Positions 8,641 to 10,908 of a stretch of 25,613 bases of DNA are shown piece after piece. The translations under genes and the position numbers were made by a program. Below the pieces are notes generated by a model that saw nothing but the letters and a program-made list of their open reading frames with translations, did no database searches and was not told where the DNA came from. How positions within the stretch are numbered: position 1 is the first letter of the stretch; each line of letters opens with the position of its first letter. Source of the stretch: a virus. Location: IMG/VR virus record IMGVR_UViG_3300007735_000534, positions 1-25,613 of that record; one strand, given 5' to 3'.

Positions 8641-9180
8641 TTAGGAATCAGCAAAGGGTGTCGCGACAGTTCCTGAGCCAAGTGCAATACCGTTGACCAT
8701 GTACTTGTTGGCTGCGATCGCAACGATCTGGACCCATGATCCAGCAACGCCACCGGTTGTCGTACCGTTGAAGTTGATGAAGTCATTGGAAGCACCGGCC
8801 GTGTAAGCCACAAGCGCATTGGAAGAGTCAGTATCAACACCAAGGATCGTACCGACAAACTTGTCAGTGCCATCCGTACCAATCTTCAGTAAAGATGTAG
8901 CAATCGTGGTTGGAACCCAGATCGTATAAACAACGCCTTCGTTGTTGGCCGTATTGGGATCATTGCCAGGGCCAGACGAGGATACGTTAGCTGAAGTATT
9001 GATTGCAGGAAGCGTCAGAACCACGTTAGCAGCAAGTGTGCCGCCAACAGAAATAATCCGGCCAGCATGGGCCACGGGATTTAGTGTGGTACTGGAAGTG
9101 ATCTCAACGATCGTGGATGGGCCCTGCTGATAAATGCCGCCCAGGGATCGGACTGGACCGTCAAAGGTAGAAATAGCCAT
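8641..9180 (-). CDS. Beta-rich virion structural-type protein, 179 aa
   Basis: Begins MAISTFDGPVRSLGGIYQQG and continues with Thr/Ala/Gly/Val-rich beta-type sequence. The opening and the even spread of hydrophobic residues resemble phage head-decoration or capsid-accessory proteins that follow the major capsid gene, but I cannot name a family. GGAG sits five bases before the ATG. It is the first gene after the HNH insertion and may have its own leader (inverted repeat at 9207-9245). Absence of Cys and charged clusters fits a particle component. Confidence 0.7.
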   Translation of the reverse strand: MAISTFDGPVRSLGGIYQQGPSTIVEITSSTTLNPVAHAGRIISVGGTLAANVVLTLPAINTSANVSSSGPGNDPNTANNEGVVYTIWVPTTIATSLLKIGTDGTDKFVGTILGVDTDSSNALVAYTAGASNDFINFNGTTTGGVAGSWVQIVAIAANKYMVNGIALGSGTVATPFADS

Positions 9181-9265: not shown

Positions 9266-9294
9266 GTTGTATCAGTTATTAGGGTGGGAGTCAA
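9266..9294 (-). promoter_or_regulatory. Candidate sigma70-like promoter for the 179-aa structural gene
   Basis: On the minus strand TTGACT (9289-9294) and TACAAC (9266-9271) are separated by 17 bases. Five and four of six bases match consensus. It would start RNA near 9259, giving a leader that contains the inverted repeat at 9207-9245. The -35 box overlaps the end of the HNH gene. Weak evidence by itself. Confidence 0.3.
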
Positions 9295-9874
9295 TCAGCT
9301 TATTGTATTTCAGCAGGTTGTCTTTTTGCGTCAAAACTTGGAGATTCCATGGTACGTGCAACCCACAGACCGTCTCGCCATGCAAAGGAATAATATGGTC
9401 AACAGCGTGCCTCTCGCTAGTTGCTCTGCTCAGTTCAATAGCCAAGCGATACTTAAGCCTGATTTCCATTTTCTGCGCGTCTGTAAGCCACTTGGGTGTT
9501 GCATCCCTGAATCGACGACGCCTTAAACTGGTCATCTCTTTGTACATGTCAGGGTTATTAATCTTGTGGTTTTTCTTGTACCGGCGTTTGTCCTCATCCG
9601 TTCTTGCTTGCGCTCTAGCAATTACGTTTTCCTTGTTTGCCTCGTAGTACTTGCGCTTGGCCTTCTGTCCGGCTTCTGATTTGTTGTACTCGCGGAAGTA
9701 ATCTGCTCTAGTGGTATTGGCTTTTTCCCATTCAACTTTCAAACATTCAACACACGAGCCTTTTGTTTTTCGGGGGGCTATGTGTCCGTGCTTGCAGGGT
9801 TCGCCTGTGAAGTAATACTTGGCTCCTAAGTCTTGAGCTTCTTTGCGGGTTTTGGGTAGGTTTGAAGTGTCCAT
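9272..9874 (-). CDS. HNH endonuclease (homing-endonuclease-like), 200 aa
   Basis: The C-terminal HNH core reads HAVDHIIPLHGETVCG (about residues 157-172) followed by HVPWNLQVLTQKDNLLKYNK, giving the DH pair, the Asn and the later His/Lys expected in a beta-beta-alpha-metal nuclease. The N-terminus carries a zinc-finger-like CKHGH ... CVEC (about 23-42) and a basic helical linker, as in free-standing phage HNH proteins. It sits between the major capsid gene and another structural gene, a usual place for a mobile intronless homing gene. Start: ATG at 9874 with AGGAG six bases upstream. That site lies in a hairpin (9881-9901), and a separate promoter precedes it. Target and activity are unknown. 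Confidence 0.9.
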   Translation of the reverse strand: MDTSNLPKTRKEAQDLGAKYYFTGEPCKHGHIAPRKTKGSCVECLKVEWEKANTTRADYFREYNKSEAGQKAKRKYYEANKENVIARAQARTDEDKRRYKKNHKINNPDMYKEMTSLRRRRFRDATPKWLTDAQKMEIRLKYRLAIELSRATSERHAVDHIIPLHGETVCGLHVPWNLQVLTQKDNLLKYNKLIDSHPNN

Positions 9875-9880
9875 TTCTTT

Positions 9881-9901
9881 CTCCTGTGTTATGACACGGA
9901 G
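9881..9901 (-). promoter_or_regulatory. RNA hairpin covering the HNH ribosome binding site
   Basis: On the minus strand CTCCGTGT (9894-9901) can pair with ACACAGGAG (9881-9889) around the loop CATA, giving eight pairs with one bulged A. The 3' arm contains the GGAG ribosome binding site of the HNH gene. The predicted start of transcription from the promoter at 9903-9911 lies inside the 5' arm, so only read-through RNA would carry the whole hairpin. Confidence 0.6.
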
Positions 9902-9902
9902 A

Positions 9903-9911
9903 ATTATAGCA
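9903..9911 (-). promoter_or_regulatory. Extended -10 promoter for the HNH gene
   Basis: The minus strand reads TGCTATAAT, a perfect TGn-TATAAT extended -10 element. No good -35 is visible at 17 bases (TTTTCC), which is tolerated in extended -10 promoters. Expected start near 9896-9897. It lies just downstream of the terminator at 9921-9949, so it restarts transcription for the HNH gene and possibly the genes beyond. Confidence 0.6.
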
Positions 9912-9920
9912 CAGATCCTA

Positions 9921-9949
9921 CAAAAGGAAAACCCCGCCGGAGCGGGGTT
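9921..9949 (-). terminator. Intrinsic terminator after the major capsid gene
   Basis: Stem AACCCCGC with GCGGGGTT (9930-9937 and 9942-9949), four-base loop, followed on the minus strand by TTTTCCTTTT. It ends transcripts coming from the capsid gene 50 bases upstream. Confidence 0.85.
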
Positions 9950-9970
9950 CCTGATACAAAGCTAGTAAGG

Positions 9971-9990
9971 TGATTTCTTGTTAGAAATCA
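9971..9990 (-). repeat. Perfect 8-bp hairpin just after the capsid stop codon
   Basis: TGATTTCT (9971-9978) and AGAAATCA (9983-9990) pair around a four-base loop. It lies ten bases past the capsid stop and 21 bases before the strong terminator. It may protect the 3' end of the capsid mRNA or act as a first weak stop. Confidence 0.6.
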
Positions 9991-9999
9991 AGCACTTAC

Positions 10000-10908
10000 T
10001 TAGGCGCCTTGCGAACCAAAGATACCGAGGGGGTCGCTCACTCCAAACGAGTAGCGCTCTCTTGCCTTGTAACGCACGTTCCCCGTGTCGAAATCGCCGT
10101 CCATTCCAGTACTCATCGGTGTCCGCACGAAGTGCTTCAATCCGTTGGGTACATCGGTGGTGAGGAACCAGCCGTTCGTGTCGGTCAAGAAGTGGTTGAT
10201 CGTATAGCCTTCTGGGATCGAACCGTTGTTCTTGATGGCGTTGATGTCGTTGTTGTTGGTGCCGACACGGAGTTCGGTTTCCAACAGACGCGTTGCCACG
10301 AACTGGAGGTTAGGAGGAACGATGAGCTTGCGTGGGCGAGCTGCGATCAACAGATCACGTTCGTCGGTCCAAGCTGCGATTTGAATGACTGCGTTTTCCA
10401 ACGAAGTCTCATTCAAGTCTGCCTGGGTCGCGGGCGTGTTGCTGTTAGTGCCACCCGATACAAGAGGATGTGATGTAGAGAACAGAGGCTGGCCGTCACC
10501 ATAAGTAACGCTTGATGCCCATCCGTTGTTCAATACGGCTGCTGCTTTCACCTGCTTGGTGTATGCCATGGCGCGTGCGAGTGCCTTGGTATAACGTGAG
10601 CTGAGCGAGTCGTACAGGTTGTCTTCGATTGCCTCTTCGGTAATCGAGAAACCCATAGCGATCGTCTCATGGGTGTAGCGAGCTGTCCAAGCTTCCTGCG
10701 CGTTGTCATAACGAATCGCAGCGCCTTCGTTCTTGACCGGTGCGGCCGAGAATCCAGACAGCTTGGTTTCCTCTTCAAATGAACGCTCAGAGGTCTCGGT
10801 TTCATAGATCTCTTTGTGTTCTTCGCCATAGCGAGCGTACTCAAGACCGAACAGTGCGTTCAGGCCGGGGAGCAGCTCTTTCAGTAGTTGTGCGCGTGAA
10901 ATAGCCAT
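10000..10908 (-). CDS. Major capsid protein, Mu gpT-like HK97 fold, 302 aa
   Basis: Starts MAISRAQLLKELLPGLNALF and shows the pattern of Mu-like major head subunits: an acidic E-loop-like region (YETETSERSFEEETKLSG), then FSITEEAIEDNLYDSLSSRY, KQVKAAAVLNNGW, PLFSTSHPLVSGG and LIAARPRKLIVPPNL. About 300 residues is the usual length for this family. It forms the icosahedral shell around the scaffold. Placed after scaffold and decoration-like genes, and followed by tandem hairpins and a terminator, which fits a highly expressed gene. GGGG lies a few bases before the ATG. No delta domain of the lambda/HK97 type is apparent, consistent with the separate scaffold gene. Confidence 0.88.
   Translation of the reverse strand: MAISRAQLLKELLPGLNALFGLEYARYGEEHKEIYETETSERSFEEETKLSGFSAAPVKNEGAAIRYDNAQEAWTARYTHETIAMGFSITEEAIEDNLYDSLSSRYTKALARAMAYTKQVKAAAVLNNGWASSVTYGDGQPLFSTSHPLVSGGTNSNTPATQADLNETSLENAVIQIAAWTDERDLLIAARPRKLIVPPNLQFVATRLLETELRVGTNNNDINAIKNNGSIPEGYTINHFLTDTNGWFLTTDVPNGLKHFVRTPMSTGMDGDFDTGNVRYKARERYSFGVSDPLGIFGSQGA

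Follow-up and report, generated by a model that had tools for sequence, protein, structure and literature searches.

The window analyzed here, a 25.6-kb virus record (IMGVR_UViG_3300007735_000534), carries on its minus strand a major capsid protein gene, followed in turn by an intrinsic terminator, an extended -10 promoter, an RNA hairpin, the ORF of an HNH protein and a further gene for which family searches gave no family match of its own (Table 1). The original prediction had named a strong terminator behind the capsid gene and a perfect TGn-TATAAT promoter, and both are present.

Table 1. Features of the capsid–HNH region, listed in the direction of capsid transcription
Feature	Position	Strand	Basis
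Major capsid protein gene, holding the putative homing target	10000..10908	-	PF25209 Phage_capsid_4, E 7.5e-16; PHROG 371 major head protein
Putative target recognized by the HNH endonuclease, antisense to capsid codons 270-278 (D G D F D T G N V)	10075..10101	+	Leader matrix; codon differences
A+T-rich hairpin between the capsid gene and the terminator	9964..10000	-	Fold prediction in the window
Intrinsic terminator after the capsid gene	9928..9951	-	10-pair stem and T-rich tail
Extended -10 promoter TGc-TATAAT of the HNH gene	9903..9911	-	TG 9911-9910, TATAAT 9908-9903; related leaders agree
Conserved element ATTCTCCGTGTCATAAC over -10/+1, capsid-target look-alike and putative operator	9888..9904	-	Leader-matrix tests
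RNA hairpin: 5' arm 9903-9894, loop 9893-9890, 3' arm 9889-9879 with Shine-Dalgarno	9879..9903	-	Folding, relatives' leaders, arm tests
Shine-Dalgarno GGAG	9881..9884	-	Sequence; ATG at 9874
Free-standing HNH (endonuclease VII-like) gene, 200 aa, probable homing endonuclease	9272..9874	-	PHROG 1035 endonuclease VII, E 1.9e-13; 18-member alignment
HNH stop codon running into the -10-like hexamer of the next transcript (TGA-TACAAC)	9266..9274	-	81/135 unique HNH genes
Structured leader of the downstream gene: two hairpins with loop-loop kissing helix	9194..9258	-	Follows the capsid terminator at empty sites
Gene 3' of the HNH gene; same-position gene in phage DSL-LC04 annotated cement protein	8641..9180	-	Comparison with DSL-LC04

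The HNH gene and its neighbors

Residues C27, H31, C41, C44, D159-H160, N177 and N186 of the HNH protein, with their DH...N...N pattern, are invariant in the alignment. The Pfam HNH match is sub-threshold (E 0.27, below the cut-off), and the family assignment in Table 1 comes from the PHROG match. An AlphaFold model of the protein is of moderate quality (pLDDT 74.6, pTM 0.37), and a fold search with it returned no significant match and no solved relative; a few weak local fold matches, none of them significant, are to HNH nucleases (colicin E7, pyocin S2).

Viral-contig searches with the window's HNH protein and two diverged relatives as queries gathered 235 loci, 135 of them unique, and in every one the HNH gene lies directly behind the same capsid gene. 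Searching with the capsid instead yields relatives with matching flanks and no HNH gene between them, in which the capsid terminator is followed by the -10 and the structured leader of the next gene. The stop codon of the HNH gene, TGA or TAG, runs straight into TAYA in the fused genes counted in Table 1 (for example TGA-TATATT or TGA-TACAAC). From the layout of the empty sites and this fusion of stop codon and -10, the HNH gene sits between the capsid terminator and the promoter of the next gene. Its presence or absence at a single site between like flanks is the polymorphism expected of free-standing homing endonuclease genes. At one locus (L040, from 5001) the HNH ORF is broken at codon 123 and the leader and remaining sequence are still there, as in a decaying endonuclease gene. 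Elsewhere the gap downstream of the capsid gene holds other cargo (L103, L112, L131, L136, L141, L145, L147, L152, L155), including very acidic small proteins, a methyltransferase-like gene in L112 and stretches that have no forward endonuclease ORF.

By eye, a terminator is present in the gap behind the capsid gene in most of the related loci listed. Upstream of it in the window, the A+T-rich hairpin between capsid stop and terminator reads AGTAAG..TGATTTCT-AACA-AGAAATCA..CTTACT. Rfam gave no match in the window at gathering thresholds, and the matches listed by E-value, which lie mostly on the terminator, score below the gathering scores of their families.

The leader of the downstream gene appears to consist of two hairpins joined by a kissing helix of 6-7 bp, and in the window the pairings read CTAGG/CCTAG (A), CATACCG/CGGTATG (B) and AGTAG/CTACT (C). 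When arms are exchanged between loci, pairing becomes much poorer for helices A (z -15) and B (z -21; n=70), and the same test does not separate own from foreign partners for helix C (z -1.1). The structure recurs in related loci (L088, L094, L161, L311, L312) and in Pelagibacter phage HTVC023P, has no match among Rfam families and is a candidate new RNA family.

A look-alike of a capsid-gene site overlaps the HNH promoter

A promoter scan of the window found no -35 element for the HNH gene, and for lack of a -35 hexamer the promoter is missing from the list of two-hexamer hits. Since about one chance occurrence of the exact TGNTATAAT is expected in DNA of the window's size, the promoter call draws its support from conservation: related leaders have a -10-like hexamer at the corresponding position, accompanied by TG in 70 of 124, a count that is partly selected because the hexamer was picked as the best of 9 offsets. 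The predicted +1 is 9897 or 9896.

The sequence that spans the -10 and +1, TTNCCNGTRTCRWAA, is never lost among related leaders, and it matches the antisense strand of capsid codons ~272-277. When its conserved core, CCNGTRTCRWAA, was scanned over 2 Mb of loci, most matches outside the leaders fell at one place, on the capsid antisense strand near the end of the gene. The capsid protein there reads MDGDFDTGNVR; the antisense of GAY TTY GAY ACN GGN AAY GTN is NAC RTT NCC NGT RTC RAA RTC, against which the commonest leaders read TACATTACCTGTRTCRWAA.

The core had been spotted by eye and regex before we built a matrix from 93 unique leaders and scored it on both strands of the capsid genes. In each of the 136 non-redundant capsids its best match falls at the same place on the antisense strand. 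These capsids share ancestry and so represent one homologous site rather than 136 independent events; it is therefore a permutation test and the periodicity of the leaders that carry the weight. The mean score at the capsid site is 16.8; column-permuted matrices average 3.1 and reach at most 12.5 in 1000 permutations, and comparable matches elsewhere number 9 in 1.70 million positions. In the window the matrix matches 10078-10094, within the putative recognition region.

The most variable columns of the core in these non-coding leaders, -4, -1, 2, 5 and 8, are the wobble positions of the capsid codons. Leader variation has a period of three in register with capsid codon wobble (entropy of wobble versus other columns, p 0.002), and the entropy of leader columns tracks that of capsid columns (Spearman 0.77, p 3e-4). 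The window's own element is among the more diverged, with 12 of 18 bases matching its own capsid site. At wobble positions, leaders match their own capsids no significantly better than permuted partners (z 1.4-1.5). This lack of clear co-variation fits recognition by a protein rather than pairing of RNA, and a protein that has to accept synonymous changes in its target would accept them in its operator as well. If the capsid site is the homing site, the leader contains a look-alike of that site over the endonuclease promoter, as in I-TevI-type autorepression. The original prediction centered on the hairpin and was in this respect incomplete: it missed that the 5' arm and the -10 together form a copy of a capsid-gene site, which is the main feature of the leader.

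Carriers differ at synonymous codons of the putative target

If the capsid site is the homing target, genomes that carry the HNH gene are expected to have it altered with no change of protein. Across 221 conserved codon columns, the synonymous contrast of capsids with and without the HNH gene is greatest at codons 276 (p 1e-8) and 272 (p 3.5e-7), both within the putative target. Codon 276 is GGA in 43 of 136 capsids with the gene and in 1 of 72 without it, and the window carries the states typical of carriers, GGG at codon 276 and GAT at 272. The two sets of capsids were sampled differently, and we also compared 72 non-overlapping nearest pairs, which reduce the effect of shared ancestry and do not remove it; among 227 codons, the top directional shifts are at 276, 272 and 271. 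When the HNH carriers are set against sites that hold none of the three endonuclease families described below, codon 276 shifts from pyrimidine- to purine-ending Gly in 31:0 pairs, and codon 272 shifts in 34:3. Support is weaker when any synonymous difference is counted against matched same-state pairs, where codons 271, 272, 278 and 276 rank 3, 9, 13 and 20 of 235, and codons outside the target (299, 232, 288 and 224) also differ between the two sets. Synonymous shifts at the putative target correspond to the altered target sequence of resident genomes in free-standing homing systems, and we infer that these codons protect carriers against cleavage.

Two GIY-YIG families occupy the same gap

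The gap between the capsid and cement genes also holds two families of GIY-YIG endonucleases, here called gvy (L393-L459) and giy (L314-L385). The gvy proteins (L148/L393 type) have a weak LEM-3-like GIY-YIG match, below the cut-off, and are unrelated to the HNH family. Their leaders carry ..AATCTCCGTCCATTG.. just upstream of the -10 (35 unique leaders), and a matrix anchored on this motif, which was chosen by eye, selects, in every one of the capsid representatives, the neighboring stretch that is antisense to M D G D F; none of 500 permutations did as well (z 10). A gvy matrix anchored on the -10 failed, probably because the spacing is variable. Capsids next to gvy genes differ at codons 270, 274, 275 and 278. 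Many gvy leaders (L393-L454) also contain an HNH-type element, TTACCTGTGTCGTAA or TTACTAAGTC, which lies ~80-110 bases upstream of the gvy ORF and closely follows the capsid terminator. It is as if gvy had inserted downstream of an HNH promoter, or as if the site served the two enzymes alike.

The giy proteins (L087/L314 type) combine NUMOD3 and GIY-YIG domains and match the group I intron endonuclease family TIGR01453. Their codon fingerprint is the strongest of the three, at codons 289 (40:2), 285 (27:0), 279, 282 and 283, and their leaders match capsid codons 278-282 no more than suggestively, since 32 of 500 permutations score as high (p about 0.06). The peaks at 285 and 289 lie ~20 nt from the leader-matched stretch, which recalls the distant cleavage of I-TevI. 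In these comparisons, gvy shows the same arrangement as HNH with a codon fingerprint of its own, and giy a fingerprint with a weaker leader match.

The main rival to protection as the source of these fingerprints is co-conversion, in which capsid DNA hitchhikes with the adjoining gene during homing. Polymorphism gradients beside mobile introns are documented (Repar and Warnecke, PMC5378118), and the differing codons do fall within the final tenth of the capsid gene; the peaks, however, are single codons with no gradient toward the stop, and the shift at codon 276 is one-way across pairs, yet uses both GGA and GGG. Three families moreover have three sets of peaks, 271/272/276 for HNH, 270/274/275/278 for gvy and 279/283/285/289 for giy. 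We consider co-conversion an unlikely source of the fingerprint.

The same bases form one arm of a hairpin over the Shine-Dalgarno

In RNA, the bases downstream of the -10 pair with the ribosome binding site of the HNH gene, and the GGAG does lie in the 3' arm of the hairpin as originally described. The window hairpin, UUCUCCGUGU-CAUA-ACAC(A)GGAGAA, has an energy of -11.1 kcal/mol (z -3.7), equaled by 1 of 200 shuffles and by 2 of 4000 random 8-base 5' arms. In the commonest form of the leader, the -10 is followed by A, CCTGTGT-CGTA-ACACAGG and AG, a perfect 7-bp hairpin with the Shine-Dalgarno in its 3' arm. Other lineages have the compensatory versions CCTGTTA/TAACAGG and CCCGTA/TACGG, or TACCTGTG/CATAGGTA, and the arms in the window's clade are TCTCCGTGT/ACAC-A-GGAGA. 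Cognate arms out-pair arms swapped between leaders (-7.0 versus -5.9 kcal/mol, z -7.0), and the advantage holds after collapsing to 36 distinct 5' arms, each counted once (z -3.3). Comparison of related leaders thus shows pairing of the arms to be kept, with compensatory changes, in most of them, and also shows the Shine-Dalgarno hairpin to be gone, with the 5' sequence kept, in several lineages (L038, L044, L049, L055, L061-L069). The hairpin is for this reason not the primary constraint on the leader.

In most leaders the 5' arm begins 0-2 bases past the -10, spanning -6 to about +3, so that the start falls inside the arm. Folding of the window RNA begun at the predicted +1 gives no hairpin, which bears out the proposal that RNA from this promoter cannot form the full hairpin, and the geometry is conserved in relatives. 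The arrangement also travels with the HNH gene, one of the two origins that had been suggested for it. A promoter whose transcript, by its predicted start, misses the 5' arm and a hairpin that contains the endonuclease ribosome binding site, the latter lost in some relatives, are both hallmarks of hairpin-controlled homing endonucleases.

The further proposal, that read-through RNA hides the ribosome binding site, stands in part. The hairpin is conserved beyond chance, and the predicted probability of a free Shine-Dalgarno is 0.28 when the RNA comes from upstream and 0.54-0.63 when it starts close to +1. Once 40 bases of upstream RNA are included, however, the Shine-Dalgarno is predicted to be occluded whichever 5' arm is present (0.27 with its own arm, 0.30 with another leader's, 0.29 with a shuffled one; no significant difference), and this makes the added effect of the hairpin on read-through RNA uncertain. 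A hairpin that hides the ribosome binding site would be expected to lower translation of such RNA.

Two other observations concern the same bases. One leader lineage (L274-L309) reads CCTGTTACTAAGTCACAGG where another (L161-L192) reads CCTGTGTCGTAACACAGG, the middle resembling a partial inversion of the hairpin. Pairing of the leader GTRTC with GAYAC of codons 2-4 was considered and dropped, as it is often mismatched.

Could the hairpin be all that matters, silencing read-through RNA by sequestration of the ribosome binding site, with the likeness to the capsid gene incidental? The arm-swap results, the local energies (-5.7 for a leader's own arm, -4.6 for other arms and -3.3 for shuffled ones) and the start inside the 5' arm throughout are what such control predicts. 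It does not predict wobble periodicity, a unique capsid match or capsid codon fingerprints, and the core sequence survives where the hairpin does not; we regard this explanation as improbable. It is also very doubtful that some other repressor, from host or phage, uses the element as a palindromic operator, with the RNA hairpin a side effect of the dyad symmetry. The form seen most often, CCTGTGT-CGTA-ACACAGG, is indeed a perfect dyad, and departures from pairing by G-U versus A-C, tried as a discriminator between RNA hairpin and DNA dyad, were too few to decide (8 to 5), but the arms stand 3 to 10 bases apart, at odd as well as even distances, conservation is universal for the 5' half alone, and the capsid match would be left unexplained. 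That the leader RNA is an antisense regulator pairing with capsid mRNA, to whose codons ~272-278 it is complementary, is highly improbable: own and permuted capsids do not differ significantly in the wobble match described above, and the predicted start leaves half of the complementary bases out of the leader's own transcript.

A model for target-mimic autorepression

The conserved promoter, the capsid look-alike, its wobble-phased variation, the codon fingerprints and the conserved hairpin with the start in its arm are all visible in the sequences compared here. On this footing, we think it quite probable that the HNH gene belongs to a free-standing homing endonuclease that cuts the capsid gene, whose carriers are resistant by synonymous codons, and which represses itself through a target-mimic operator that also serves as the hairpin arm hiding its ribosome binding site in read-through RNA. 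The gene would occupy the space between the capsid gene and the structural gene that follows, and the enzyme would recognize ~17-21 bp in the capsid gene (antisense NAC RTT NCC NGT RTC RAA RTC, codons ~272-278), some 200 bp from the HNH start codon, with wobble positions tolerated. Synonymous changes in the target would protect carriers. The copy of the target that overlaps the -10 and the start of its own promoter would, by analogy with I-TevI, most likely be bound with no productive cleavage, so that the HNH protein would bind both the leader and the capsid site, cut or nick the latter and repress its own promoter. The same bases would form the 5' arm of the hairpin. Since transcripts from the gene's own promoter lack this arm, the ribosome binding site would be covered only when transcription has passed through the capsid terminator; the effect on translation would follow from this.

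Hairpins that sequester ribosome binding sites are known for T4 I-TevI, I-TevII and I-TevIII, segB and Aeromonas phage Aeh1 mobE (PMC2988022). The last is a free-standing HNH gene, so a hairpin of this kind at such a gene is not new. Like mobE and segB, the gene described here is free-standing, probably encodes a homing endonuclease and has a hairpin that sequesters its ribosome binding site; those two belong to T-even phages and to nrd and tRNA loci, and no target-mimic operator is reported for them in the passages of PMC2988022 considered. The closer likeness is to I-TevI of the T4 td intron, in which the ribosome binding site is hidden on RNA initiated upstream, RNA from a proximal promoter has no hairpin, and a look-alike of the target lies over the promoter (PMC2988022). 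The I-TevI operator has 15/20 identity to the homing site, lies over a late promoter, and is bound equally well and cleaved about 100-fold less (PMC2988022). I-TevI, however, is an intron-encoded GIY-YIG enzyme with a T4 late promoter, whereas here the enzyme is a free-standing HNH protein with an extended -10 promoter, the look-alike doubles as the hairpin's 5' arm, and the adjacent capsid gene holds the putative target. A limited literature search found no report of a target-mimic operator for a free-standing HNH enzyme.

The locus also resembles the HEG islands described in PMC10448857, in which nuclease genes lie beside essential structural genes (capsid, terminase and others) and different HEG families occur at one place; the words promoter, autorepress and hotspot are absent from that text, so HEG regulation is not treated there.

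We lean toward the view that target-mimic operators are general for free-standing homing endonucleases: one HNH and two GIY-YIG families would attack adjacent capsid stretches within ~20 codons, each would have a copy of its target across its promoter or ribosome binding site and its own resistance fingerprint, and targets would then be readable from leaders alone. Such targets are normally found by crosses or cleavage assays; here the sequence by itself is enough to propose the target, the operator and the resistance changes. If the model is correct, I-TevI-type autorepression would extend to free-standing HNH enzymes, and to at least one unrelated GIY-YIG enzyme, outside T4. A single stretch of DNA would serve at once as -10, operator and RNA hairpin arm, and selfish genes would shape codon choice in an essential capsid gene.
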